Assembly (NCBI GenBank): GCA_028287465.1
Contig: JAQBPO010000031.1
Location: 62,001-126,000, forward strand
Reading direction: 5' to 3'
DNA length: 64,000 nucleotides
Source: Fibrobacterota bacterium
Lineage (GTDB): Bacteria; Fibrobacterota; Fibrobacteria; UBA11236
Positions within the stretch are counted from its first letter, which is position 1. Each line of letters opens with the position of its first letter. The notes under the pieces are model-generated. The model was not told the origin of the DNA, did no database searches, and saw only the letters and a program-made list of their open reading frames with translations. This document shows, in pieces, positions 34,669-54,740 of the stretch. Position numbers and translations under genes: made by a program.

Positions 34669-35073
34669 ATGGCCAAGATACTGATTTACGAACCGGAAGA
34701 CCGGTACCGGATAATGTTGCGCTTCATCCTGGAAGGCATCAATCATCGCGTCCTGGATGCGGGAAGCCTGGAAGACATCCCCATCCTGCTCGCTGCCGAC
34801 AAGCCGGACCTTATCGTGCTTGGCGTGCATCTGGGCGAAGAGCCGGAATTCCCGACCTGGCCGGACTGGCGGTTGGAACTGCCCGACGTGCCCACCCTGA
34901 TCCTCTTCTCCGGGGAGGAATCCATGCGCGCGGAGTTCCTGGAAGCCTGGGACGGGTCCCGGTCCCTGAACCAGATGATCCAGCCGATCGATCCCTATCC
35001 CCTTCTCGCCATGGTGAAGGCCATGCTGACCGCGCCCGTGGAGTGGCGCCGCGGCGGCCAGCACGCGGGCTGA
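34669..35073 (+). CDS. Degenerate response-regulator receiver-domain protein
   Basis: 134 residues that fold-match a stand-alone receiver: first strand 'KILIYEPEDRYRIMLRFIL' with the acidic pocket (E8, E10, D11), third strand 'KPDLIVLGVHLG', fourth strand 'VPTLILFSGEES', fifth 'LNQMIQPIDPYPLLAMVKAM'. The position normally holding the phosphorylated Asp is Gly52, and the usual Lys before the last Pro is Gln. Without these the protein cannot be phosphorylated in the normal way, so it is likely a pseudo-receiver used for protein binding. It is divergent from moeA across about 150 bp. No kinase is nearby. Confidence 0.7.
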   Translation: MAKILIYEPEDRYRIMLRFILEGINHRVLDAGSLEDIPILLAADKPDLIVLGVHLGEEPEFPTWPDWRLELPDVPTLILFSGEESMRAEFLEAWDGSRSLNQMIQPIDPYPLLAMVKAMLTAPVEWRRGGQHAG

Positions 35074-35123: not shown

Positions 35124-36128
35124 CTAGAAGGTCTGCTCCATCAGCGATCGGCTGGTGAACACCCAGGTTACCACCCTGGTGCGGGGCAGGGATTCGACGA
35201 GCTCCAGGATCCGGTCCGGCCCCTTGATGAATCCCGCCAGGGAATGCACGGTCTTGACCGGGACCCCCAGCTCCCTGGAGAGATGGGCCCCCAGGTGGCC
35301 CGACTGCCGCTTGTATTGGTTGAGGAAGCTGTCCCCGAACAGCAGGATGCCGGCGGAATCCGGTTCCGCATAGATCCCGCCCTTCCCGTTCCCCACCCGC
35401 CGAATCCGCACGGTATCCGTTTCCGCCAATCCGAACTTGTCCGCCAGGTCCCCCTGGAATCCGGTCAGGACCGAATCGATCAGGGCCGATCCCTGCCCGG
35501 TCCCGGCCGGAAGCCCGGCCGGGCTTCCGGCCCGTGATTCCGGATCCCGTTCCCCCTCCGCCATGAGCCCCGGCCGCAGCCGCGCGGCGAGCCTCACGGC
35601 CGCCAGCCGGATGGCATCCTCGTCCCAATGGGTATCCGTATGCGGGAACAGGCGCAGGGAATCCCTCGCCGCCGCGAAATCCCTGCGCAGGTCGAGGTAC
35701 TCCACTCCCAGGCTGTCGAGTCCCGCCAGGAAAAGGTTCTTGGACGGGCTGATGTCGGACCCATCCCTGCCGCCCAGCAGGGCCGGGTACACTTCCACCT
35801 TGGTCGGGACCGGCACCAGCAGGAGCCGGACGCCCTTCGCCTTGAGTCCGGCCGAAACCCGCGAGATGAGGGCGAGGTTGGAATCGAGGTGGTCCCATTT
35901 GGTGACCGCGGCGCGCAGGTCCTCCAGGTAGAACAGGTGCCCGTTCCCGCCCCGGATGACGTATTTGTCCGCCCCCTTGCCGGATCGCGCGTCCTGGGCG
36001 TCCAGGACCCGGATGAGGGCCTCGTTGCGGGAATAGAACGGATCCTTTTCCCGGCATCCCGCAAGGATGAGCAAGGAGAAGAGCAGGACGAGCAGGGACG
36101 CGGGCGCGTAACGCCGGGCAGGCTTCAT
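35124..36128 (-). CDS. AlgJ/AlgX-like SGNH lipoprotein (possible polysaccharide O-acetylation)
   Basis: 334 residues with a lipoprotein signal (LVLLFSLLILAGC, Cys25). The layout matches the AlgJ/AlgX/SGNH-like acetyltransferase group: 'LFYLEDLRAAVTKW', 'KGVRLLLVPVPTKVEVYP', an 'HTDTHWDEDAIRLAA' block (about 161-175) supplying the Asp-His pair, and 'ILLFGDSFLNQY' (about 263) supplying the Ser nucleophile. These proteins acetylate exopolysaccharide in the periplasm. The MBOAT partner expected from the alginate system is not adjacent. The gene lies 130 bp downstream of the glycan transferase fusion on the same strand and may be co-transcribed. ATG is preceded by AAGGAA. Confidence 0.75.
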   Translation of the reverse strand: MKPARRYAPASLLVLLFSLLILAGCREKDPFYSRNEALIRVLDAQDARSGKGADKYVIRGGNGHLFYLEDLRAAVTKWDHLDSNLALISRVSAGLKAKGVRLLLVPVPTKVEVYPALLGGRDGSDISPSKNLFLAGLDSLGVEYLDLRRDFAAARDSLRLFPHTDTHWDEDAIRLAAVRLAARLRPGLMAEGERDPESRAGSPAGLPAGTGQGSALIDSVLTGFQGDLADKFGLAETDTVRIRRVGNGKGGIYAEPDSAGILLFGDSFLNQYKRQSGHLGAHLSRELGVPVKTVHSLAGFIKGPDRILELVESLPRTRVVTWVFTSRSLMEQTF

Positions 36129-36258: not shown

Positions 36259-38316
36259 CTAAGCCCTCGCCGGCCGCCGCGGAATCACGGGATTGTCGTG
36301 GGCTTCCCGGCGTTCCGCCGCGCGAATGGCATCGCGATCGCCTTGGGCGCCCAGGTGGCTGGGGATGTAAACGGGATTGCGTCGCAACATCACCTGGACC
36401 CGGCGCGTTGCCATGCTGTCCCGGATGGAGGTGAAAGCGAACTTCTGCATCAACCGGTTGAGCTTCCACTCCAGGGAATGCTGGTTCACGTAATGTTGGA
36501 AGGTCTTGACCAGGCCCACGCTCACGCGGCGCTGATCCTGATCCAGCTCCCAGGGATGGAAATAGACCATGGCGGGATGGCCCTTGCGGTTGCAGGAGTC
36601 TATGAAGGTTTCCGTGACCACGTGCGGGAACAGGCGCAGGTAACCTCCACCGGACATGGGCAGGAATTTGTTGCCGACGCCCAGGGTGGACATGGGGAAT
36701 TCCATCATGGTCTTGCCGCTCTTCAGGTGCTGGGTATGCGGCAGGCGGTTCGGATAATGCGGGATGCCGTAGCGGTCGCGCTTGATGGGGAAGATGCTGG
36801 AATCGTACTTGAGGCCGTGCTTGGCCATGATTTCCAGGGCCCAGTAGGTGCTGGGCACGATGGTGAAGTTCGAGGCCCGGTGTCCGATGACGGGCTGGGT
36901 ATAGTTCCTGGCGATGGCTTCCAGGGACTTGGCGAGATCTTCCTCGTAGCTGGCCGGGGTCATGTCCGTGATCAGGTTGTGGTAATACCCATGGGTCCCG
37001 ATCTCATGGCCTTCCGATGCGATCATGCGGACGATCTCGGGGAAGCGCTCCGCCACCCAACCCAGCACGAAAAAGGTGGCCTTGGCCTCCTGGGAGCGGA
37101 ACAGGCCCAGGATGCGCTCCATGTTGGCTACGATGCGCGTCTCCTGCAGATGCCAGGTGGAAGGCGGCACCTTTTCCTTGAGGTTGTACGCATGGAACCA
37201 GCATTCCACGTCCACGGTCATGAAGTTGCGGACGCGGCTCTGCGGACGGGCCAGATCCACCACCTTGTCCATGTGGATCTCCTGGAGCATCCGGTGGACG
37301 CGGGGGCTGGGATCGCGCACGGCCATGCGGCCGCCCAGGCCGTTCACGCGGTGGGACAGGTCCACCAGGAAGCCCAGGTCGTCCAGATCGAAATCCTTAC
37401 GCGGGGTGTAGCACACTTCCAGGGTCTTGATGCCGCGGGCGGAAAGGCGGGCCAGGCGATCGGTGATCTCCGAAGGATCCTTGCCCTGGAGGACCATGGA
37501 GCGATCATCGCTGTCCAGCTTCACCCAGGCCGTGACCTTATGGGTGGAGCCGTGCTTCTTGGGCGCGTGCGCCAGCATGTTGAGGAGCTTGACGCGCTTG
37601 AGGCTCGCCAGATCGCGGGTATCCCCTTCCTTGCGGGGCTTGATGAGCAGGTAACCCACGGTGTTCATGAGCACCCACCATTCCATGCGCGCCCAGGAGC
37701 CGAAATGGCTGAAGGAGGCCCGGTAGGAATAATCGAAGTAGGTCTTGCGGACCACGCTCTCCATGCCCTCGTCGTAGCCGAGGGAGATCTGCGCGAGACC
37801 GGTCAGGCCGGGCTTGACCCAAAGGGTGCGGTTCTGGTAATGCGGGATGGTGCGGCCGAACTCGACGGTGAAATGCGCCCGCTCGGGACGCGGGCCGATG
37901 AAGCTCATGTCCCCGCGCAGCACGCTCCAGAATTGCGGGAGCTCATCCAGGTGGAGGGCGCGCAGCCACCATCCAACCTGGGTCACGCGCGGGTCGATGC
38001 CCTTGGCCGCCAATTGCGGCCCGTTCTTCTCCGCGTCCGTGCGCATGCTGCGGAACTTGTAGATCTCGAAAGGCTTGCCCCCCACGTCGGACTTGCGGAT
38101 GGGCGCGGGCTCTTCCCCGTCCGGGCCTTTTTCGCGGGGGCGGGACCGTTTGTTGATGCCCACCCGTTCCTGGCTATAGAGGATCGGGCCCGGGCTTTCC
38201 ATCTTGATGAGGATGGCCAGGATGGGGTAGAAAAATAGGAAGGCGCCGGTGCCCACAAGACCGACGGCTATATCGATCATCCGTTTCACGACGATGACGC
38301 TGGGACTGGGTCGCAT
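36259..38316 (-). CDS. Fusion: initiating sugar-phosphate transferase + STAS-like domain + polysaccharide deacetylase
   Basis: 685 residues with three parts. Residues 9-245 form a monotopic bacterial sugar transferase, which moves a sugar-1-phosphate to undecaprenyl phosphate: one membrane helix (about 13-38), 'PFEIYKFRSMRTDAE', 'LDELPQFWSVLRGDMSFIGP', 'WVKPGLTGLAQ'. Residues ~258-355 look like a STAS domain ('RLSARGIKTLEV', 'LGFLVDLSHRVNGLGGR', 'VHRMLQEIHMDKVVDL'). Residues ~362-620 are a polysaccharide deacetylase of the XrtA/PEP-CTERM-locus kind: 'FMTVDVECWFH' (D369), 'EGHEIGTHGYYH' (H437, H442), 'VYFHPWELD' (H587). The ATG at 38316 has AAGGAGCAGG directly before it. The transferase works on the cytoplasmic face, whereas such deacetylases usually act on sugars or polymer, so a single-compartment fusion is unexpected. 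Confidence 0.85.
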   Translation of the reverse strand: MRPSPSVIVVKRMIDIAVGLVGTGAFLFFYPILAILIKMESPGPILYSQERVGINKRSRPREKGPDGEEPAPIRKSDVGGKPFEIYKFRSMRTDAEKNGPQLAAKGIDPRVTQVGWWLRALHLDELPQFWSVLRGDMSFIGPRPERAHFTVEFGRTIPHYQNRTLWVKPGLTGLAQISLGYDEGMESVVRKTYFDYSYRASFSHFGSWARMEWWVLMNTVGYLLIKPRKEGDTRDLASLKRVKLLNMLAHAPKKHGSTHKVTAWVKLDSDDRSMVLQGKDPSEITDRLARLSARGIKTLEVCYTPRKDFDLDDLGFLVDLSHRVNGLGGRMAVRDPSPRVHRMLQEIHMDKVVDLARPQSRVRNFMTVDVECWFHAYNLKEKVPPSTWHLQETRIVANMERILGLFRSQEAKATFFVLGWVAERFPEIVRMIASEGHEIGTHGYYHNLITDMTPASYEEDLAKSLEAIARNYTQPVIGHRASNFTIVPSTYWALEIMAKHGLKYDSSIFPIKRDRYGIPHYPNRLPHTQHLKSGKTMMEFPMSTLGVGNKFLPMSGGGYLRLFPHVVTETFIDSCNRKGHPAMVYFHPWELDQDQRRVSVGLVKTFQHYVNQHSLEWKLNRLMQKFAFTSIRDSMATRRVQVMLRRNPVYIPSHLGAQGDRDAIRAAERREAHDNPVIPRRPARA

Positions 38317-43324: not shown

Positions 43325-44060
43325 CTGGGATTCCTTCTTTGAGAACGCATCGCCCACCTGGTTGAATCCGGGCACCATGCGCTTCGATACGCATGATGAT
43401 CCTAGCCTGCCCGAACGCCGGTAACCGATTGAGGCTAAATATACTCTGGGCCATGGAAACGGGGGCCGGGATTTTTCGGGTTCGCCGGCATATTCGCCCC
43501 TGAAAATGGCCCTTTCGTCATAATCCCATTCAATCCCATAAGTTCCGTCGTTCATTTGCGGTCAACGTAACACCGCGCGGATCCTCCCTGAACCCAGGGG
43601 TTACCCCCCTCCGCCGCCGCGGCTCCGGGAGCCGGAACGAATTGTTTCGGAACGGGTCGTGACAGCAGGAATTTCCCGTCGGAGGATCCCTGCCGTAAAG
43701 TTCGCTCCGCTTCCGGTTCGAGAAGTCCGGTGCGGCGGATCCGGGACCGATCTTTCCCATTGGATCGCGCCCGCGCTTCCGAGACGATCCGTGATAAGGT
43801 TTTGGAACCGGGATCCGGCGCGCCGGCTTCCCGTTCCGGATTAGTCGCTTGCTTCGGGATCCCGTATCCTGTACTTTATCCATGGGTTGATCAAGCGTGT
43901 ATCCATGTGGCGTATTCCGGTGTACCGTATAGTACAATGGAAGCCGGTGTTTCAAATAAACCCGGCGATGCCCATGGGGTACCGGTTTCCTCCTGATTAA
44001 ATTATTCCCGAACATAAAGCCTTTCCATTGATCGCCTTTTCCCTTCCGGAGCTCCCCCCG
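43325..44060. other. 736-bp divergent intergenic region upstream of the exopolysaccharide operon
   Basis: No convincing gene on either strand. The left 500 bp are GC-rich with several GGATCC-containing inverted pieces. From about 43860 the DNA becomes AT-richer ('TGTACTTTATCC', 'TTGATC', 'TATAGT' at 43928-43933), which is where the operon promoter most likely lies, although no clean -35/-10 pair with 17-bp spacing is seen. A hairpin at 43943-43966 follows. Confidence 0.5.
43943..43966 (+). promoter_or_regulatory. Leader hairpin upstream of the exopolysaccharide operon
   Basis: GCCGG(T)GTTT pairs with AAACCCGGC with one bulged base and the loop CAAAT. It lies about 95 bp before the ATG at 44061 and just downstream of a TATAGT -10-like box, so it could sit near the 5' end of the mRNA. 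No T-run follows, so it is not a simple terminator. Confidence 0.35.
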
Positions 44061-47000
44061 ATGCCCCCACGCGCCAGGACCGTTACCAGGATGTTGCTGC
44101 TCCCGTTCATGGTCCTCCTGGCCGCCCTTTCCGGATGCCAGCGCGCCCCCAAACCGGGGCCGGATTTCGGGACCAGCCGCGTCCAGGGCGTGCGATTCGA
44201 TCCGTCCTACTACTACGATCTGAAACGGCCCTTGCGCGAGTTCGTGGACTCTTCCGTGGGCGAGTGGCAGTCCCGGGGCATCAACACCATCTTCTTCAAG
44301 GCCTATGACGCCGAGTTCGGGGCCGTCTACAAGACGGGCTATTCCGGCAACCGCAAGACCGACTACGGCGACAAGGATCTCCTGAGGCTTTTCCTGGACG
44401 CGGCGCATAAGCGCGGGGTACGCCTGGTCGCATGGATGCCGGCCTTCGAGCACAAGGGCGCCTGGGAGGCGCATCCGGAGTGGCGGATCAAGGCCTCGGA
44501 CGGCTCGGACCTCATGCCCCTGCCGGATCACCATTTCCTGTGCGTGCGCCAGCCCGGCGTGGCGGAGTGGTGGAAGGGGTTCGTCGGGGATCTGCTGAAA
44601 CGCTATCCCGATCTGGACGGGATGGATTTCGCCGAACCCGCCATCGTCTGGAAAGGCACGGTGACCTGCGCCTGCCCCGTCTGCAAAAAGGAGATCGCCT
44701 CGGGAGGGCGGGACCCGTTCTCCCCGGAGGCGGTGGCCGAGCGCGCCCGCGGCATGACCGATCTCCTGCTGGCCTCGACCGCCGCCGTGAAAAGGGCGGG
44801 CAAGACCGCCTGCGTCACCTTCATCGCCACGGCGGACCGTTCCACGGACCTGCTCCCCTTCGCGCGCCAGAAGGATCTCACCGGCCTGGACGTGGATCGC
44901 CTGCTCGAGTCCCCGGATCGGCCGCAATGGGTTTCCATCGAGATGATGTGGCAGCAATGGGCGGACACCTACGACAATCCGGCCGCCTTCCGGCCGGCCT
45001 GGACGCGCAAGGCCGTGGAGCAGGCCCTGGCCCAGGTGGGGACCCGCGCCCATGTGGTGGCCCACGTGGAAATAACCCCGCTGGGCCCGGTGGAGGTCAG
45101 CCCCAACGAATTGACCGAAAGCATGGTGGCCGCGCGCGAAGGCGGGGCCCAGAGCATCGAGTTCTACGACACCCACCTTGCGGACAGCCTGGGGGCATGG
45201 CCCAACCTGGAACGGGCCTGGCGGACCCAGAGCGAGCGCAAGGCCGTGGTGTTCCACGATCCGGGGGGATTGGGAGTGGCCCGGCAGGTGGCGGTGCTCT
45301 TCGGCCACTTCGGCCTCAAGACCGTGGTGGCGGAGGTGGATTCCTTCTCGGATACCCTGATCCATCCCGGCGATCTGGCGGCCTACGTGGGCAACAAGGA
45401 GAATTACCCCCTGCCTGCGGCCTTCCTGGCCTGGGCGGCCCGCCCGGATTCGAAGCTGTTCTGGGCCGACTTCAACCTATGGCAGCTGGACCGGCCGATC
45501 CTGGGCGGCCATGGCGATACCAATACCTACAAGGATACGGCCCGCGGCCTCTCCAATGCGCCCAGCAACGGAACCCTGGCCCGCAAAGGCCTGAAGTTCG
45601 AATACCACCAGCGCACTTCCGAGTACCCCTTCGTCATGTACGGAGGGCAGGAGCTGTTCAAGACCGATTCGGTACTCAACGTGGTCTCGGTGCTGGATAC
45701 CGCCAAGGCGATCGTGCATGCCCGCGTGCGCTCGCGGGACGGGGACATGAAGCCCTATATCGTGCAGTCCGGGAACTTCTGGTACGTGGCCGATTGCCCC
45801 ACCGACTATATCGTGGAAGGCGGCCGGGACGCGGCGTTCGCGGATCTGCTTCACGAGTTCGTCGGGGACATGCATCCGGTCAAGCGCACGGCCCTGGTCC
45901 GCATCGAGGACGTGTGCCCGCTGACCGATCCCCTTTCCATCAAGGCCATCGCCGACTACCTGAGCGGGGAAGGCGTGCCCTTCTCCATCGCCCTGGTCCC
46001 CTTCTACGTGGACCCGGACGAGAACGTGGCCGCCAGCCTTTCCGACAAGCCGGAGCTGGCCAAGGCCATCCGGTACGCCATGTCCAAGGGCGCCGCCATC
46101 GTCATGCACGGGAGCACCCACCAGTACCGGGGCCGCTCGACCCACGATTACGAGTTCTGGGACGCCCTGCACGATGATCCCCTATTCGAGGATTCCAAGG
46201 AATACGTGCGCCTGCGGCTCCAGCGCGGCATCGACGAGATGCGCAAGAACGGCATCTACCCGATAGTGTTCGAGACGCCCCATTACGCCTGCTCCCAGCT
46301 GGACTACTCCGTCATCGATCGCTTCTTCTCCGCGGAATACGGGCGGAGGCAGGTCATCGACAAGACCGGTTTCGATCAGCTCGTCCCCTACTTCATCGCC
46401 CGGCATCCTTCCGGCACCTCCATCATCCCCGAGAACCTGGGGTACGTCCCCAACGATCGCCAGGACGCGGCGCCGCTCCTCCGCTTCGCCAAGAACAACC
46501 TGGCGGTCCGGGACGGCTTCGCCAGCTTCTTCTTCCATCCCTGGATCGACAGGAAGGTCCTGAAGGACCTGGTGGAAGGCATCCGCGGCATGGGTTACCG
46601 GTTCTCGGACATCCGTGGGCTGCAACTGGACATGCAGGCCCAGGGTATCGTTCAGGTTACGGGTAGCCGCGAGGCCGTACTCAACCCGCAGGGCAAGTAC
46701 CTCCGCACCTTCTACCTGGACGCGACGGGCGAAAAGCACGAAGAGTGGATATCCGGCGATCCCGTCTCCGTGGAATTCCGGAAGGCCGTCCATTGCCCGC
46801 CGGGCTGGACCTTCGTAGCGGAAGCCATCGACAAGCCGGAGGGCTGGATGCCCCGCTTCTCCAAGCAAGAACAGGGATTCCTGGGCAAGGCGCGCCAAAG
46901 GCTGTTCTATTCGCCCGCCCTGCGCACCGCGCAAGGCGCTCCGGCCCGGCCCTGCGTCCTCTGGGTGCCGCCGGGATTCGCCAAGGGCCATCCCCATTGG

Positions 47001-49412
47001 CATCCCCCGTCCTATGGCGGACCCGTTGTTTCAACGGGCGGACCCGTTCCAACGGGCGGACCCGCGCCGGCGGATTCCGCTTCCTTGGGCTCGGTCAAAG
47101 CCACCCGGGCGGCGACGGCCCTCCGCCCCGGGACCGATACCGCAACCCTGGGCGCCGGGCCCGCCTCCGCCAGCCATATCCGCTTCCCCGAAAGCCAGGC
47201 CTCCTGGGTGCGCGCCTTCCGCGCCTGCGGCATCGACGTGGACACCTTGCGGGTGGACCGATTCCTGGAAATCCCCGATGAGAACAACCTCGTCGTGGTG
47301 CCCGCCCAGGCCGCGGCCTACCTCTCGACCCAGCAGGCCCTGATGCTGGGGAAATGGGTGGCCAAGGGCAGGGCCGTGATCCTGGAAGGCCCCTCCACCC
47401 TGGCCGAATTGATCGGCATCCGAGCGACGGATTCCGGAAAGACCGTGACGGACCTGAAGGACGACTTCCTGCCCCAGGTGGAAGTGAAGTGGAAGGAACC
47501 TTCGCCCTACCTCATCTTCGACGCGGACGTGGAGTACGTGAACGAATACAGCACCTCCGAGGACGCGCCCCTGGTGGCCGGCGGCGAATACGGGGAAGGC
47601 AAGTACCTCTTCTTCGCCACCCCGTTCGCGGCGGACTCCTCCCATTCCGGACCCTATCGTTTTCCCTTCTTCCTGGACATGGTGCAGCGCGAATTCGACC
47701 TGCATCCCGCCCTCCGCTCCCCGAACCTGGAGGTCTACTTCGATCCGGGCAACCGCGAGGACTTCCCCCTGGAACAACTGGTGGCCGCCTGGCACAAGAA
47801 CGGGGTCAGGGCGGCCTACCTCGCCGGCTGGCACGAATACGACAAATACACCTTCGAATACGCCTACCTGACCGAACTCCTGCACAAGAACGGGATCCTG
47901 GCATACGCCTGGCTGGACCTCCCCGAGGTGTCGGACAAGTTCTGGCACGACCATCCCGCCTGGCGCGAGAAGACCGCGGCCGGCACGGATGCGGAGATGG
48001 ATTCGGAAATCGGCTGGAAGCAGTACATGAACATGAGCAACGACACCTGCCGCGCGGGCGTCTACAACTCTTACAAGCGCCTATTGCAATCGGCCGCCTG
48101 GGACGGGGCCGCGCTCACGGGCCGCATGTTCGCCGGGGACGGGCCGAAGGATTCCCTGAAGCATATCACGCCCTTCCATCCCTCCTTCCGGGCCGCGTAC
48201 GCCGCCGCGCGCGGCTATGACCCCATCCGCATCTTCGATCCGGCCGCGCCGCAGTTCCACGGCAGGTCCCTGCGTTATTGGAACGAGTTCTCGGCCTACC
48301 GCGATTCCCTGGAACTCGCCTTGACCCGGGACGCCATCGCGTTCCTCAAGCAGCAACGCGTCCTGCAGCGGCCCGGCACGGAAATCATCCTGACGCGCAG
48401 CCTGGACGGGGCCTCCCCGGCGGCCAAGGCCTGGTACCATGACCTTACGGAAAAGGATCCCCAGGTGCGGCTGCAGGCCTCCCCGGCCCGGACCTCCATG
48501 AACGCGGCCGTGCTCCTGGAGGATTTGTCGCGCTGGCGCGCGGAGTACCCCCGATGGCGGCCGATGGTCGAGATCCATTTCGACAACCATAAGTCCGCGA
48601 GCGGCGTGACCGGCCAACTGTGCGGGCTGGAGCTGATGGACCTGGTGGCCGGCGCCGAGCAGGCGGGAACGCGCCTGTCCCTGCGGACGGAGGATTATAT
48701 CTACGATACCGATTTCCGCGATCTGTCCTATGCGGCCGCGGCCTCAGCCAGCGAACGCATTTCCCCCTCCGGCTGGACCATCCGTTCCCAGGGCCGGACG
48801 GTCCTGGAACTGGACGAGAAGGCCAATCCGGAAGTCCTGGTGGACGGCGGCCTGTGGCCGGCCTACGTCAAAGGCCGCCTCCTTCTGCCCGAAGGCGAGC
48901 ACCGCGTGGAAGGCTGCCCTCGCCTGATCGCGTGGAAGACCCTGTTGCAGGCTCCCGCGCGCATCACCGGTTTCACCGGAGGCATCACGGAAGCGCAGAC
49001 CACCCTGCAAGGCCTGCGCCTTCGTTACGAATCCGCCCTCCCGGTCTCCCTGGGCGTGTCCATGGCGCCCCGCTCCGCCACCCTGGACGGCTTGCCCTTC
49101 AACCTGCCCGCGGCGCCCCTCCAGGGCCGGCCGGGCGTTCCGAAAGGCGGCGAGGCCGCGGCCGGCATGGGCCTGAGCCTGCCGTCCGGCAGCCATGTGG
49201 TGGAAATCATCACCCGCCCGTTCGCCACCTCCCTCATGCGCCAGGCCAGCATCGGGCTTTCCGGCATCATCATCGTCATCAGCTCCATCACCGTGCTGGC
49301 CTTCCTCCTCCTCTATCTGGGCGGGATGGCGAAGCGGGTGTATAACGGGGACGATGTCGACGAGGACCCGAAAGGGAAACCGAAGAACGCGAAATCCAAG
49401 ATCGGAGATTAG
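44061..49412 (+). CDS. Giant exopolysaccharide-processing lipoprotein: two glycosidase-like barrels, two Rossmann-like modules, DUF2334 deacetylase
   Basis: 1783 residues. ATG 44061 follows CGGAG and gives a lipoprotein signal ending LSGC (Cys26). Order: GHL10/PgaB-like barrel (~44-390; 'DGMDFAEPAIVW', candidate acids near 187); Rossmann-like module (~394-597; 'VVFHDPGGLGVARQVAVLFG'); DUF2334 deacetylase (~608-853; 'RTALVRIEDVCP', 'VMHGSTHQY', 'FETPHYACS', 'FFFHPWID'); beta region and GGP linker; second Rossmann-like module (~1040-1200); second barrel (~1223-1540; 'NLEVYFDPGNRED', 'NGILAYAWLDLPEV'); beta domain; membrane helix (~1730-1757). Hydrolase, Rossmann and deacetylase in this order recall PelA, and DUF2334 beside GT2 recalls B. 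subtilis YdaL/YdaM. It would trim and deacetylate the polymer made by the next gene product, outside the cytoplasm. Confidence 0.85.
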   Translation: MPPRARTVTRMLLLPFMVLLAALSGCQRAPKPGPDFGTSRVQGVRFDPSYYYDLKRPLREFVDSSVGEWQSRGINTIFFKAYDAEFGAVYKTGYSGNRKTDYGDKDLLRLFLDAAHKRGVRLVAWMPAFEHKGAWEAHPEWRIKASDGSDLMPLPDHHFLCVRQPGVAEWWKGFVGDLLKRYPDLDGMDFAEPAIVWKGTVTCACPVCKKEIASGGRDPFSPEAVAERARGMTDLLLASTAAVKRAGKTACVTFIATADRSTDLLPFARQKDLTGLDVDRLLESPDRPQWVSIEMMWQQWADTYDNPAAFRPAWTRKAVEQALAQVGTRAHVVAHVEITPLGPVEVSPNELTESMVAAREGGAQSIEFYDTHLADSLGAWPNLERAWRTQSERKAVVFHDPGGLGVARQVAVLFGHFGLKTVVAEVDSFSDTLIHPGDLAAYVGNKENYPLPAAFLAWAARPDSKLFWADFNLWQLDRPILGGHGDTNTYKDTARGLSNAPSNGTLARKGLKFEYHQRTSEYPFVMYGGQELFKTDSVLNVVSVLDTAKAIVHARVRSRDGDMKPYIVQSGNFWYVADCPTDYIVEGGRDAAFADLLHEFVGDMHPVKRTALVRIEDVCPLTDPLSIKAIADYLSGEGVPFSIALVPFYVDPDENVAASLSDKPELAKAIRYAMSKGAAIVMHGSTHQYRGRSTHDYEFWDALHDDPLFEDSKEYVRLRLQRGIDEMRKNGIYPIVFETPHYACSQLDYSVIDRFFSAEYGRRQVIDKTGFDQLVPYFIARHPSGTSIIPENLGYVPNDRQDAAPLLRFAKNNLAVRDGFASFFFHPWIDRKVLKDLVEGIRGMGYRFSDIRGLQLDMQAQGIVQVTGSREAVLNPQGKYLRTFYLDATGEKHEEWISGDPVSVEFRKAVHCPPGWTFVAEAIDKPEGWMPRFSKQEQGFLGKARQRLFYSPALRTAQGAPARPCVLWVPPGFAKGHPHWHPPSYGGPVVSTGGPVPTGGPAPADSASLGSVKATRAATALRPGTDTATLGAGPASASHIRFPESQASWVRAFRACGIDVDTLRVDRFLEIPDENNLVVVPAQAAAYLSTQQALMLGKWVAKGRAVILEGPSTLAELIGIRATDSGKTVTDLKDDFLPQVEVKWKEPSPYLIFDADVEYVNEYSTSEDAPLVAGGEYGEGKYLFFATPFAADSSHSGPYRFPFFLDMVQREFDLHPALRSPNLEVYFDPGNREDFPLEQLVAAWHKNGVRAAYLAGWHEYDKYTFEYAYLTELLHKNGILAYAWLDLPEVSDKFWHDHPAWREKTAAGTDAEMDSEIGWKQYMNMSNDTCRAGVYNSYKRLLQSAAWDGAALTGRMFAGDGPKDSLKHITPFHPSFRAAYAAARGYDPIRIFDPAAPQFHGRSLRYWNEFSAYRDSLELALTRDAIAFLKQQRVLQRPGTEIILTRSLDGASPAAKAWYHDLTEKDPQVRLQASPARTSMNAAVLLEDLSRWRAEYPRWRPMVEIHFDNHKSASGVTGQLCGLELMDLVAGAEQAGTRLSLRTEDYIYDTDFRDLSYAAAASASERISPSGWTIRSQGRTVLELDEKANPEVLVDGGLWPAYVKGRLLLPEGEHRVEGCPRLIAWKTLLQAPARITGFTGGITEAQTTLQGLRLRYESALPVSLGVSMAPRSATLDGLPFNLPAAPLQGRPGVPKGGEAAAGMGLSLPSGSHVVEIITRPFATSLMRQASIGLSGIIIVISSITVLAFLLLYLGGMAKRVYNGDDVDEDPKGKPKNAKSKIGD
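47016..47064 (+). repeat. Short tandem repeat in the giant gene (GGP linker)
   Basis: The unit GGCGGACCCG recurs three times (47016, 47037, 47055) with spacers TTGTTTCAACG and TTCCAACG, encoding GGPV-STGGPVPTGGPAP. It lies in the low-complexity linker between the deacetylase half and the second Rossmann-like module and may vary in copy number. Confidence 0.6.
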
Positions 49413-49419
49413 GACCTGA

Positions 49420-50742
49420 ATGCCGTATTCCCATCCCATCCTCGAATTCCTTTTCCTTTTCTCCGTAGTGGTCATCTGGGCCATGATCCTGTTCAACCTG
49501 ATGCTCACCTGGGGCGGGTACATCTACCGGCGCAAGTTCTTCAAGAACGAGGTCCCCCTGGCCGACGACGCGGACCTGCCCGGGGTTTCCGCCCTGATCC
49601 CGGCCCGCAACGAGGCCATGGTGATCGAGAAGACCGTGCGCGCCCTGTTGGCGATGGATTACCCGAAGGACAAGTTCGAGGTGATCGTCATCAGCGACCA
49701 TTCCAACGACGGAACCACGGAAATCGTCGAGCGGCTGTCGAAGGAGGATCCGCGCGTCCGCTGCCTGGGCTGGCCCGCACGGGAGCGGGGGTCCGGTAAG
49801 CCCCATGCCCTCAACGAAGGCCTCAAGCTCTGCCGCTTCCCCGTCATCGCCATCTACGACGGGGACAACAATCCGCGCCCGCAATCCCTGCGCATCCTCT
49901 CCTCGGCCATGGTGGCGAACCCGAACCTGACCGCCGTGCTGGGCAAGTTCCGCTGCATCAACCGCAACAAGAACCTGCTCACGCGCATGGTCAACATCGA
50001 GACCCTGAGCTTCCAGTGGATGATCCAGGCGGGCCGGTACTGGTTCTCCAAGTTCGCCATCCTGCCCGGCACCAATTACATCATCCGCAAATCGGCGCTG
50101 GATGCGGTGGGCGGATGGGACGTCAAGGCCATCACCGAGGATTCGGAATTGTCCGTGCGCCTGCAGATGATGGGCTACGAGGTGCAGTTCGTGCCCACCT
50201 CCGTGACCTGGGAGCAGGAGCCGGAGACCCTCAAGGTCTGGATCAAGCAGCGGACGCGCTGGGTGCGCGGCAACAATTACGTGCTCAGGAAGTTCGCCGG
50301 GCCGGCCCTCAAGTTCAGGAACCGCCACCTGACCATGGAGTTCCTCTACATGTTCGGGCTGTATTACCTGTTCCTCCTCTCCACCGTGCTCTCCCACGGC
50401 ATCTTCATCCTGAGCCTCCTGGGCGTCATCCGCATCGACATCCCGGGTCCCTATACGGCGGTATGGTATTCCGCCTACGCCCTCTACATGGCCGAGGTCT
50501 TCTTCGTGCTCTCGTACGAGAAGGAAGACACCTTGGGCAACTTCTTCGTCACCGCCCTGATGTACTTCACCTATTGCCAGCTGTGGATCTACGTGGTGTT
50601 CAAGTCCTTGCTGCTCGATTTCACCCGCACGCGCGTAGGCGTCTGGGACAAGACCGTTCGCTTCAAGACCGACGCCGAGATCCCGCCGGAAAACCCGGTG
50701 GAACCCCGCGACAAGGCGAAGGCGAAAAAGTCCGATGATTGA
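49420..50742 (+). CDS. Processive family 2 glycosyltransferase (polysaccharide synthase)
   Basis: 440 residues. One membrane helix (7-29) precedes the GT-A domain with the nucleotide-sugar motifs 'PARNEAMVIEKT', 'VISDHSNDGT', DGD at 147-149, TED at 239-241 and the processivity motif QRTRW at 277-281. At least three helices follow (~305-335, ~345-365, ~378-402). This set of motifs marks synthases that polymerise and push the chain across the inner membrane (PgaC, hyaluronan synthase, YdaM type). No PilZ domain is present. It starts seven bases after the giant gene and overlaps the next gene by 8 bp, so synthesis and processing proteins are made together. Confidence 0.9.
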   Translation: MPYSHPILEFLFLFSVVVIWAMILFNLMLTWGGYIYRRKFFKNEVPLADDADLPGVSALIPARNEAMVIEKTVRALLAMDYPKDKFEVIVISDHSNDGTTEIVERLSKEDPRVRCLGWPARERGSGKPHALNEGLKLCRFPVIAIYDGDNNPRPQSLRILSSAMVANPNLTAVLGKFRCINRNKNLLTRMVNIETLSFQWMIQAGRYWFSKFAILPGTNYIIRKSALDAVGGWDVKAITEDSELSVRLQMMGYEVQFVPTSVTWEQEPETLKVWIKQRTRWVRGNNYVLRKFAGPALKFRNRHLTMEFLYMFGLYYLFLLSTVLSHGIFILSLLGVIRIDIPGPYTAVWYSAYALYMAEVFFVLSYEKEDTLGNFFVTALMYFTYCQLWIYVVFKSLLLDFTRTRVGVWDKTVRFKTDAEIPPENPVEPRDKAKAKKSDD

Positions 50743-52024
50743 GTCGCGCCCCGCCTTGCTTCCGATCCTGCTGGCTACCATCCTTTCCGCCGTTTCCGTC
50801 CGCGTCCTGGCGGCCCCCGCGCCGGCCGATACGGAGACAGCGGCCGATTCGGCGATAGCGCAAGCGGAGAACGATGGGCGGGACACCGCCGAGGCCGATC
50901 CGATCGCGGAAGCGGAAGGGGATGAAGGGGAAGGTTCCGATCAACCCTTGTGGATGGACTCCTATGGCGAAGGCGTCTTCTCGCGCCATGACGACCGGAA
51001 CCTTTCCGGGTTCACCGAGTTCAAGGTCGGCAAGCGCTTCAAGACCCGCCTGCCCATGGACCTGTACCTCAAGACGCGCCTCTACCGCGACCAGCGGGAT
51101 TTCTACTGGAACAACCGCGCGGACGCGGGGGCGGGCGCGCGCGTCTCCCTGCTCAAGAAGGTCTCCTTGACCTTATTCGGCGAGGTGGTCGCCGGCCAAT
51201 ACCTGCGCCTCTCTTCCGGTGCCCTCGGGTTCGGCGGCCTGCAGGGCCGCATCGAAGGGAACCGCGCGGCGATCGATGCCGCGCAGAGCGAGTACCAGGC
51301 GATGTACAAGGAGATTTTCCAGGCCCATCTGCTCGACGACCCCAAGATCAACCGCGAGACCATCGCCCATCTGGATACCACGGGCAATATCCATCTCCAG
51401 AACCTGGTGCGCCTGAACGCGCGCCTCGACAGCCTGGAGACCTCGAAGGACAGCATGAGCCAGGCGATGGACAGCATCGGCCTGGTTCCGGCCGGCGCGG
51501 TGACGGAGTACCGGGCCGGGCTCGTATTCTGGCACGCTTGGGGACAGGATGAGGCGGAAGGGGAAGGCCCGGCGGAAGGCTCGGCGCGGCCCCGTTTCCG
51601 GTTCCCCTTGAGGTTCTGGGGCGAGGCGTATTCGGATTGGATCTTCTCGTCCCTGAGCCGCCATGTGCGCTCCCGCGGAGGCGGGGAAGCGTACCGCGAC
51701 AGCGTCGCGCGGTTCCGCAACCTCATCTTCTACGCCAACCCGGATGTGGGGATGATGCTGATGGAAGGCCTGGCGGGATCCGTATCCGCCTACGGGACCG
51801 CCTATGTCTGGTTCGATACCCATAAGGATTGGTGGAACAATCTGGCCATGGCCGGCCCGGGCCTGCGGTACAAACCCCTGGGCGCGCTCGATCTGGTCTT
51901 CAAGGCCGAATACCTTTGGGGCCGGTATTACGGGCGCGAACGCAAGGAAGATCCCAATCCTTACGCGCGTAACCTGCGGGATGTGCGCCTTACGGGAAGT
52001 TTCTGGTACGGCCTGGGGATTTGA
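50735..52024 (+). CDS. Outer-membrane barrel, probable exopolysaccharide export pore
   Basis: 429 residues with a signal peptide (MIESRPALLPILLATILSAVSVRVLA) and an acidic linker rich in Glu, Asp and Ala (~30-72). Amphipathic strands begin at 'NLSGFTEFKVGKRF'. A helical insertion (~169-250; 'GLQGRIEGNRAAIDAAQSEY...RLDSLETSKDSMSQAMDS') probably forms a coiled coil. Strands resume at 'RFPLRFWGEAYSDWIFSSLS' and end with 'DVRLTGSFWYGLGI'. The 'DWWNNLAMAGPGLRYKP' segment is like the C-terminal barrels of polysaccharide porins of the BcsC/PgaA/NfrA kind. No TPR scaffold is attached, unlike those porins. Function as the pore is inferred from position between synthase and propeller genes. Confidence 0.65.
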   Translation: MIESRPALLPILLATILSAVSVRVLAAPAPADTETAADSAIAQAENDGRDTAEADPIAEAEGDEGEGSDQPLWMDSYGEGVFSRHDDRNLSGFTEFKVGKRFKTRLPMDLYLKTRLYRDQRDFYWNNRADAGAGARVSLLKKVSLTLFGEVVAGQYLRLSSGALGFGGLQGRIEGNRAAIDAAQSEYQAMYKEIFQAHLLDDPKINRETIAHLDTTGNIHLQNLVRLNARLDSLETSKDSMSQAMDSIGLVPAGAVTEYRAGLVFWHAWGQDEAEGEGPAEGSARPRFRFPLRFWGEAYSDWIFSSLSRHVRSRGGGEAYRDSVARFRNLIFYANPDVGMMLMEGLAGSVSAYGTAYVWFDTHKDWWNNLAMAGPGLRYKPLGALDLVFKAEYLWGRYYGRERKEDPNPYARNLRDVRLTGSFWYGLGI

Positions 52025-52047
52025 TCCCGGGAAAGATGGAGGATGGA

Positions 52048-53616
52048 ATGCATTGCATCGAACGGAAATCCCATGGCGCGGCCTTTTCAGGCTTTGCGGC
52101 AATGAAGGCCTTCTCAGGCTTGGCAGGCTCGGCGGCCGCACCGGTCCTGGCCGCCCTTACGGCAATGGCGACAATGGCGGCCATGGCAGCGCCCACCGCC
52201 GGAGCCGTGCCTCCCGGGGGGCAATTGTGGCGCTTCTACGCGGACTATAGCGTGACCGTTGTGGCGGCCACCCCTGACCTGTCCGGGAACGGCGGCAAGG
52301 ACGTATTGGTGGGATCCCAGGACGATTCCCTGTACCTGGTGGAGGGCAAAGGGCCCAAGGCCGGGTTCCAGCTCTGGTCCGCTCCCTTCCGGTCCACCCT
52401 GAGCGCCGCGGCCTCCATTCCGGACGTGAACGGGGACGGGAAGGCGGACGTGGCCGGAGGCGACGAGCTCGGCCTCATCCAGGCCTTGTCCGGGGCGTCC
52501 GGCCAGGCCCTGTGGAAATACCTCACCTTCGGGACCATCCTCAGCGTGGTTTCCGCGCCGGATGCCAACGGCGACGGGATCGCCGACGTCGCCGCGGCCA
52601 GCGAGAACGATACGGTCTATTGCCTGTCCGGAAAACCGGACGGGGCCCTGGGCAAGGTGTTGTGGCAATTCGGGTTCCTGGGCACCAAGCACGGCGGCGG
52701 AGGCGGAAAGCCCAAAACGTCGTCAGCGCCGGCATCCGCGGTCGCGGGTTCCCCGTCAGCCGCCCTCCCGGGCCCCAAGGACGGGGCTTCGGGGGCCAAC
52801 AGCCTAGCGGTGCTGGCGGATAAAAGCGGCGCGTTCGGCATAGCCGTGGGTACCAGCGCGGATACGGTCTACTGCCTGGCCCCCGCCACCGGAACGCCCA
52901 AATGGAAGACCGGCCTTCCCGGGGACGTCTGGAAGGTGGCCGCATTCCCGGATCAGGACGGCGATGGCATCAGCGAGGTGCTCGCCGCATGCGGCGCCGA
53001 CAAGGCCTATCTGCTCAAGGGAGCCACGGGCGAGATCCTCTGGTCCCATCCTGTCTCCCTCGGCGCCCTCTCCCTGGCCGTCACCGAGGACATGAACGGG
53101 GACGGGAAGGCCGACGCCCTCATCGGGGACGGGGGAGGAAAGGTCCATTGCGTATCCGGCGCGGCCAAGGGAGCCGACGTCGCGGCGGTTTGGACCTACG
53201 ACTTCGGCGATACCAGCAGCATCCTGTCCCTCGCCCCCATGGGCGACGTGGATAAGGACGGCAAACCGGACTGCGCGGTGGGAACGTCCAACGATTCCGC
53301 CGCCCTCTTGGGCGGCAAAGGCGTGCGGGTCTGGTCGGTCAGCCTGGGCGGGGACGTGAAATCCGTGGCCGATATCGGCGACGTGGACGGCAACGGCACC
53401 GACGATATGGGAGCGGGTTCCGCATTGGGTTTCGCCTCGGCCCTGTTCGGAGGGGGTCCGGCCCCCATCGCGGCACGGGAGGGTTACGGTCCGAGGGCGC
53501 GGCGGGCCGTCGGGAGCGGTGCCGACCAACCTCATGACGCGAACGGAAGGCTGCGTTCCGGACGCGGATCGCGGCCGTTCGCTGGAGCATTCTGGAACGG
53601 GCAAGGGGGCCGATGA
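52048..53616 (+). CDS. Secreted FG-GAP/PQQ-like beta-propeller protein of the exopolysaccharide operon
   Basis: 522 residues. The best start is ATG 52048 (GGAGG a few bases upstream). A TTG at 52021 overlapping the previous stop is also possible. The N-terminus has a long Ala/Met-rich hydrophobic segment (~24-50), a signal peptide or anchor. Repeats carry the FG-GAP acidic loop 'D-x-NGDGxxD' / 'DKDGKPD' / 'DVDGNGTDD' alternating with PQQ-like strands ('LSGASGQALWKYLTFG', 'LKGATGEILWSHPVSLG'). A Gly/Lys/Ser/Pro spacer interrupts at ~217-250. The acidic loops bind calcium. The last ~50 residues are Arg/Gly-rich. It may bind the polymer or scaffold the export complex. The stop overlaps the epimerase start (ATGA). 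Confidence 0.7.
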   Translation: MHCIERKSHGAAFSGFAAMKAFSGLAGSAAAPVLAALTAMATMAAMAAPTAGAVPPGGQLWRFYADYSVTVVAATPDLSGNGGKDVLVGSQDDSLYLVEGKGPKAGFQLWSAPFRSTLSAAASIPDVNGDGKADVAGGDELGLIQALSGASGQALWKYLTFGTILSVVSAPDANGDGIADVAAASENDTVYCLSGKPDGALGKVLWQFGFLGTKHGGGGGKPKTSSAPASAVAGSPSAALPGPKDGASGANSLAVLADKSGAFGIAVGTSADTVYCLAPATGTPKWKTGLPGDVWKVAAFPDQDGDGISEVLAACGADKAYLLKGATGEILWSHPVSLGALSLAVTEDMNGDGKADALIGDGGGKVHCVSGAAKGADVAAVWTYDFGDTSSILSLAPMGDVDKDGKPDCAVGTSNDSAALLGGKGVRVWSVSLGGDVKSVADIGDVDGNGTDDMGAGSALGFASALFGGGPAPIAAREGYGPRARRAVGSGADQPHDANGRLRSGRGSRPFAGAFWNGQGGR

Positions 53617-54740
53617 TGGAAACCGTAGCCCGCAAACCCCTGATCGCCTTGGCATTCGGGACCCGTCCCGAAGCCGTCAAAATGGTCCCGGTCATCCGCG
53701 CCCTCAAGGCCCGGCCCGAACTCTCCACCCTGGTGATCTCCACCGGCCAGCACAAGCAGATGCTGACCCAGATCCTGGAACGCTTCGATATCCGGGTGGA
53801 TCACGAGATGGATCTGATGGAACCGAACCAGAGCCTGTACCGGTTGAGCAGCAAGGCCATCGCCGCCTTCGAGGAGGTCCTGACCCGGACCCGCCCGGAC
53901 ATGATGCTGGTCCAGGGCGACACCACTACGGCCTTCCTGGGCGCCCTGTGCGCCTTCTACGGGAAGATCCCCGTGGGCCATGTGGAAGCGGGCCTCCGCA
54001 CCAACGACAAGTACTTCCCCTTCCCGGAGGAGATCAACCGCCGCCTCATCACCGCCTGCGCGGACATCAACTTCTGCCCCACCCAGGGCAACAAGGACAA
54101 CCTCCTGCGCGAAGGCCTGCGCGAGGAGACCATGATCATCACCGGGAACACCGGCATCGATACCCTGCTGTTGGCGGCCGCCATGGAGCATCCCTTCCCC
54201 CTGCCCGATCTGGATCTGCGGGGAAAGCGCATGATCCTCGTGACGGTCCACCGCCGGGAAAGCTTCGGCGAGCCCATGGAGCGGATCTTCTCGGCCATCC
54301 GGGAATTGGCCGATGCCTATCCGGACGCCCAGGTCGTCTACCCCGTCCACCTGAACCCCAACGTGCAGAAACCGGCCCGGGAAATCCTCGGCGGCGTCGC
54401 CAATATCCACCTTGTCCCGCCCATGGACTATTTCGACTTCGTGGCCCTGATGGGCAAGGCCCACCTCATCCTCACCGATTCCGGCGGGGTGCAGGAAGAA
54501 GCCCCGACCTTGGGGGTTCCGGTGCTGGTGCTGCGCAACGAAACCGAACGGCCCGAAGCGGTGCAGGCCGGCACGGTCCGCCTGGCGGGAACGCGGCGCG
54601 AGGATATCGTGCGGGAGGCGCGCCTGCTGCTCGACAACGAAGCCGAACGGGCCAAGCTGGCCGGCGCGTCCAACCCTTACGGGGACGGCAAGGCCGCGCC
54701 CCGGATCGTCGCGGCCATCCTGAAGCATTTCGGGCTATAG
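53613..54740 (+). CDS. wecB: UDP-N-acetylglucosamine 2-epimerase (non-hydrolysing)
   Basis: 375 residues. Interconverts UDP-GlcNAc and UDP-ManNAc in the cytoplasm. Family blocks: 'LIALAFGTRPEAVKMVPVIR', 'LVQGDTTTAFLGALCAFYGK', 'PVGHVEAGLRTNDKYFPFPE', 'VTVHRRESFGEPMERIF', 'ILTDSGGVQEEAPTLGVPVL' and 'RNETERPEA', including the substrate-binding Asp/Glu/His residues. It is the last gene of the coupled exopolysaccharide operon (ATGA overlap), so it probably supplies UDP-ManNAc to the GT2 synthase. No UDP-ManNAc dehydrogenase follows. ATG 53616 is an alternative start. Confidence 0.92.
   Translation: MMETVARKPLIALAFGTRPEAVKMVPVIRALKARPELSTLVISTGQHKQMLTQILERFDIRVDHEMDLMEPNQSLYRLSSKAIAAFEEVLTRTRPDMMLVQGDTTTAFLGALCAFYGKIPVGHVEAGLRTNDKYFPFPEEINRRLITACADINFCPTQGNKDNLLREGLREETMIITGNTGIDTLLLAAAMEHPFPLPDLDLRGKRMILVTVHRRESFGEPMERIFSAIRELADAYPDAQVVYPVHLNPNVQKPAREILGGVANIHLVPPMDYFDFVALMGKAHLILTDSGGVQEEAPTLGVPVLVLRNETERPEAVQAGTVRLAGTRREDIVREARLLLDNEAERAKLAGASNPYGDGKAAPRIVAAILKHFGL

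Follow-up and report, generated by a model that had tools for sequence, protein, structure and literature searches.

A monotopic phosphoglycosyl transferase fused with a STAS-like domain and an XrtA-type deacetylase in an uncultured Fibrobacterota genus

In the window (the whole analysed stretch of 64,000 nucleotides from a Fibrobacterota draft genome) one gene on the minus strand (36259..38316; start ATG at 38316, stop codon at 36261-36259) encodes, in a single frame of 685 amino acids, a monotopic phosphoglycosyl transferase (PGT), a STAS-like domain and an XrtA-type CE4 deacetylase. This arrangement, claimed earlier by a first-pass annotation, was confirmed by the frame itself, by Pfam and NCBIfam profiles, and by copies in six assemblies. 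The gene is paralogue A of four, and, as judged from sequence, with modest confidence on our side, its product would be a membrane-anchored, cytoplasm-facing bifunctional starter for exopolysaccharide repeat units.

Architecture of the fusion protein

The AlphaFold2 model of the 685-residue fusion (mean pLDDT 83.8; pTM 0.56, which makes the relative placement of domains unreliable) consists of three domains and is divided into helix 5-40, the PGT core, a disordered linker (237-256), the middle domain (261-355), and the CE4 domain (363-646). All parts described below lie on the minus strand. Hydropathy agreed with the model in giving a single strong hydrophobic segment, the reentrant membrane helix of the PGT (aa 5-40; 38197..38304).

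The PGT domain (aa 1-232; 37621..38316) is matched by Bac_transf at aa 79-205 (Pfam, hmmscan; E 3e-47, 160.7 bits against the curated cut-off of 27), and in structure comparison this part of the model resembles the PglC and WbaP folds with Z about 18. It possesses R119, the Asp-Glu dyad D124-E125, present in all 21 fused copies, and the PRP motif (142-144), in which R143 together with P144 is found in 10/10 copies and P144 in 21/21. By domain score, dyad, and PRP motif the protein is predicted to be a monotopic PGT. The N-terminal four-helix bundle and DUF of the large monotopic PGTs (WbaP/WcaJ type) are absent from the fusion, which has its catalytic core from residue 1 and one hydrophobic segment only.

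A disordered linker (aa 233-258; 37543..37620), with pLDDT 36-50 across most of its length, is followed by the STAS-like domain (aa 259-356; 37249..37542). In the window protein the Pfam STAS match (aa 284-355, E 0.008) is below the curated cut-off, with scores of 16.3 and 19.0 bits against 22.6, while Pfam STAS and STAS_2 were matched by 14/14 family members tested (best E 5.8e-6). Profile search of PDB sequences with this domain returned TM1081, RsbV, TM1442, and SpoIIAA, all with weak E-values; when the domain was predicted alone, the best PDB fold matches were SpoIIAA, RsbV, and TM1081 with a Foldseek probability of 0.99-1.00 and E only ~1e-3 to 1e-2. In the AlphaFold2 model its elements follow the order beta-beta-alpha-beta-alpha-beta-alpha-beta. 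The middle domain is taken as a STAS fold despite the weak Pfam score in the window protein.

The proposal that this domain is controlled by anti-sigma-type phosphorylation was unsupported. The position corresponding to SpoIIAA Ser58 is occupied by Glu in 15 and by Asp in one of the 16 STAS-bearing copies (Asp312 in the window protein), and phosphorylation control was rejected because Ser is found at this site in none of them. Besides, paralogue D comprises PGT and deacetylase without STAS, so the domain is dispensable. It may be a scaffold or binding module, not open to phosphorylation, which holds both enzymes in position or docks a partner.

The XrtA-type CE4 deacetylase domain with DUF3473 (aa 361-640; 36397..37236) is matched in Pfam (hmmscan) by Polysacc_deac_1 at aa 397-482 (E 6e-17) and by DUF3473 at aa 506-634 (E 8e-40), both far above cut-off, and in NCBIfam by TIGR03006, the XrtA system polysaccharide deacetylase, at aa 364-633 with 291.9 bits against the cut-off of 276.2, most Pseudomonadota members of this family scoring 340-463 bits. 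Its fold matches include 3rxz, 3qbu, and ArnD (8t0j), and for 3rxz, HP0310, and ArnD Z is 20-25. The variable C-terminal tail (aa 641-685; 36262..36396) has low pLDDT at its end and high dN.

According to the first-pass annotation all expected Asp and His residues of the deacetylase were visible. This holds for D369, E371, H442, and H446, found in 21/21 fused copies, and for H587, which along with R480 is found in every fused copy long enough to reach it, but not for position four of the XrtA deacetylase motif DVED, which reads DVEC (C372) in the window protein. All 13 stand-alone relatives examined have Asp here; of the 21 fused copies 20 have Cys and one has Ser, and both sister-genus deacetylases have Cys. 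Since C372 replaces an Asp invariant in the 13 relatives, the deacetylase is perhaps altered or inactive, and this substitution, together with the CE4 pseudoenzyme BA3943 among the fold matches, is the ground for supposing an inactive CE4 domain that would bind a polysaccharide intermediate and thereby gate the PGT. We consider such a role unlikely, as no other metal- or catalysis-type residue varies, dN/dS is low, and the TIGR03006 score is over the cut-off.

Distribution, surroundings, and origin

The window genome, a 5.8 Mb draft in 100 contigs, contains four dispersed in-frame fusion paralogues (A on contig 7, in the window; B on contig 63; C on contig 78; D on contig 47), and all four of its TIGR03006 deacetylases are fused. 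Fusions were found in 6/6 genomes of the genus: 20 copies are complete and in frame, and a further one is truncated at the end of a contig. When the window gene was compared with four orthologues, dN/dS was about 0.08-0.17 for the PGT, 0.16-0.23 for the STAS-like domain, and 0.11-0.18 for the deacetylase; purifying selection acts on each of the three domains. The draft state of the genome could suggest that two genes were joined by an assembly artefact or a frameshift; the probability of this is negligible, because in-frame copies recur in six separate assemblies and in four paralogues and selection is purifying. The frameshift or mis-join that the first-pass annotation had named as grounds for refutation was thus not borne out, and this candidate explanation was rejected.

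The survey covered about 1,430 genomes of five phyla: 167 Fibrobacterota, 396 Acidobacteriota, 398 Pseudomonadota, 132 Zixibacteria, and 345 Thermodesulfobacteriota. In this sample, where long frames were fetched in part and rare cases are possible, no PGT-deacetylase fusion was seen outside the genus; the domain order thus recurs in all six genomes of the genus and in none beyond it, and the earlier statement that transferase and deacetylase are separate genes elsewhere was in essence supported. In our searches the four-copy family is confined to one uncultured Fibrobacterota genus. Candidates for wider occurrence were rejected: the inspected 560-880-aa frames of Acidobacteriota proved to be deacetylase-GT2 fusions or frames without PGT, the PGT being in another frame, and the long frames fetched from Thermodesulfobacteriota and Zixibacteria were without fused PGT. 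Free short PGTs of about 50% identity to the fused PGT were observed in two Zixibacteria genomes (L126:3294-4223 and L127:2745-3716).

In several Acidobacteriota the PGT and the deacetylase adjoin as separate genes, an obvious precursor of a fusion. An XrtA-type deacetylase with C-terminal GT2 is also recurrent in this phylum (L105, L109, L110, L111, L112, L116, and L119), and one genome of the fusion's own genus has a deacetylase-GT2 fusion as well (G003; L084:7818-9587). Since Acidobacteriota both pair the deacetylase gene with a PGT and fuse it with GT2, coupling of the deacetylase to sugar transfer recurs.

All fused copies group with the two sister-genus proteins (L032:9677-10999 and L079:9651-10802) in the deacetylase tree (SH-aLRT 99), and within this group the sister-genus proteins join paralogue C with support of 98. 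The deacetylase of genome G008 has neither a PGT catalytic domain nor STAS, and its N-terminus aligns to the fused PGT's reentrant helix (paralogue C) with z 15 against shuffles; in the G007 deacetylase a weak remnant of this helix was found (z about 5). The G008 protein is apparently a transferase turned membrane anchor. In another family of the order (G010) there is a free PGT of the subfamily to which the fused PGTs belong; it falls with them into a joint group of support 99 in the PGT tree, where the relation of the fusion to free PGTs of the same order is weakly resolved (support 62). From these trees we infer, and only infer because the root of the deacetylase tree is weak, a single fusion before the two genera parted, then duplication, and later, in the sister genus, disappearance of the transferase core.

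Every genome of the fusion-bearing genus encodes a single exosortase, and an exosortase/PEP-CTERM system is present in the window genome, as expected for a TIGR03006 host. There the exosortase (PF09721, E 3e-56) is encoded on contig 13, apart from the four fusions, and the exosortase locus (L097:3957-15792) includes PrsK-, PrsR-, PrsT-, and Wzc-like genes, a PEP-CTERM protein, and a DegT-type aminotransferase. Most of the Prs-like genes are below the NCBIfam family cut-offs, so the system is divergent. None of the four fusion paralogues of the window genome lies in this locus. A further PrsR-like gene (445 bits, with a cut-off of 503) lies 310 bp away from paralogue C, and the G008 deacetylase has DegT-type aminotransferase, Wza-like, FemAB (TIGR03019-like), and Wzc-like genes as neighbours. 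These surroundings tie the family, not the window copy itself, to exopolysaccharide assembly.

Around the window copy no recognisable Wzx/Wzy locus was found; its neighbours are a DedA-type gene, MoeA, and a small receiver-like protein (34669..35073, plus strand), convergent to the fusion gene and judged from its sequence to be without the phospho-Asp and Lys. This protein is kept beside paralogue A in 6/6 genomes, which is an association only; it recalls EpsW, the single-domain regulator acting on the PGT EpsZ (PMC12802240). Directly downstream of the fusion gene is an AlgX-like lipoprotein of SGNH acetyltransferase type (35124..36128, minus strand), rejected as a conserved partner since it was not found beside the other five orthologues. 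The window also contains a second polysaccharide-type locus (44028-54740, plus strand) resembling a synthase-dependent Pga/Pel-like system, which encodes a 1794-aa GHL6-like and DUF2334 deacetylase-superfamily protein, a PgaC-like GT2, a 429-aa protein without Pfam match, an FG-GAP protein, and a UDP-GlcNAc 2-epimerase.

Topology and proposed action

Monotopic PGTs are known to face the cytoplasm. In the copies tested the only strong hydrophobic segment is the N-terminal PGT helix, and because of this single membrane helix and the known PGT topology the deacetylase is placed in the cytoplasm, which supports the location given by the first-pass annotation. Many CE4 enzymes work outside the cytoplasm, and by analogy the deacetylase might be exported to the periplasm by a chain that re-crosses the membrane; this is very improbable, since the paralogues tested have no second strong hydrophobic segment, paralogue B alone having an additional marginal one inside the C-terminal helix of the PGT. 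With the deacetylase in the cytoplasm, the likely substrate would be a lipid-linked or nucleotide sugar, in line with the earlier suggestion, and most likely freshly made undecaprenyl-PP-HexNAc.

In the proposed mechanism the PGT domain, anchored by its reentrant helix, would move HexNAc-1-phosphate from a UDP-sugar to undecaprenyl phosphate, an activity assumed from the conserved catalytic residues. Then the tethered CE4 domain at the inner membrane face would strip the N-acetyl group from the lipid-linked sugar, or from a short oligosaccharide built on it, before flipping, and so yield a free-amine sugar in the polymer. The four paralogues would initiate different polymers or suit different conditions. 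The narrowest version, in which one chain loads and then immediately de-N-acetylates the first undecaprenyl sugar with a Cys-bearing CE4 site and a phosphorylation-proof STAS scaffold, is put forward tentatively.

Amide hydrolysis on an undecaprenyl-linked sugar is known for ArnD, which deformylates its substrate. ArnD shares the CE4-like fold with the fused deacetylase at 16% identity and is a stand-alone deformylase. A precedent by location is HfsH of Caulobacter, a polysaccharide deacetylase with holdfast precursors as its proposed substrates, which was reported to be cytosolic (PMC5362036).

Both enzymes might also be active with the PGT serving to localise the deacetylase, which would then deacetylate a sugar further along in the lipid-linked repeat unit. 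Such an arrangement is conceivable though doubtful: it is consistent with the proposal that HfsH modifies a subunit of the holdfast polymer as it grows (PMC5362036), with the fusion of the deacetylase to GT2 instead in Acidobacteriota, and with the membrane helix retained in the G008 deacetylase, where the loss of the PGT catalytic domain makes the deacetylase independent of the PGT and thus counts against the bifunctional starter. On the other hand, the fusion to an initiating enzyme is kept in four paralogues, for which action on the product of that very enzyme is the simplest explanation.

Relation to known systems and significance

Bifunctional monotopic PGTs (Bi-PGTs) with an extra domain fused to the catalytic core have been described (PMC10942596), and monotopic PGT fusions with sugar-modifying and regulatory domains have been mentioned (PMC12802240). 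The fusion shares with PglC and Bi-PGTs the reentrant helix, the dyad, the PRP motif, and an added domain on the core, but differs from them in its C-terminal partner, a CE4/DUF3473 deacetylase, and in the STAS-fold domain between the two. Like the XrtA deacetylases of TIGR03006 it scores over the cut-off, includes DUF3473, and has no export signal seen; unlike them it is fused to a PGT, has DVEC in place of DVED, and is encoded by genes dispersed outside the exosortase locus. The deacetylase-GT2 fusions of Acidobacteriota similarly join the same deacetylase family to a sugar transferase, while the transferase is GT2, the domain order is reversed, and the deacetylases form a separate branch of the tree. 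In Myxococcus xanthus the phosphorylated response regulator EpsW acts in trans on the large PGT EpsZ (PMC12802240); there, as in the fusion, a regulatory-type domain is paired with an initiating PGT, whereas the fusion has a non-phosphorylatable STAS domain in cis. In the literature searched, of limited coverage, no description of a PGT-deacetylase pair or of the triple with STAS was found. Monotopic PGTs with extra domains as a class and XrtA-type deacetylases are already known, and within the literature searched it is their combination that is newly described here.

The literature found leaves the site of action and the substrate of XrtA-type deacetylases unsettled. The covalent tie to a cytoplasm-facing starter in four paralogues and the helix-retaining G008 protein argue for intracellular deacetylation of a lipid-linked sugar, and the fusion provides one protein in which deacetylation on such a sugar can be tested directly. 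The STAS domain joins the list of regulatory-type parts found on initiating transferases. If the proposed action is true, the first sugar of the repeat unit would carry a free amine already on the cytoplasmic side.
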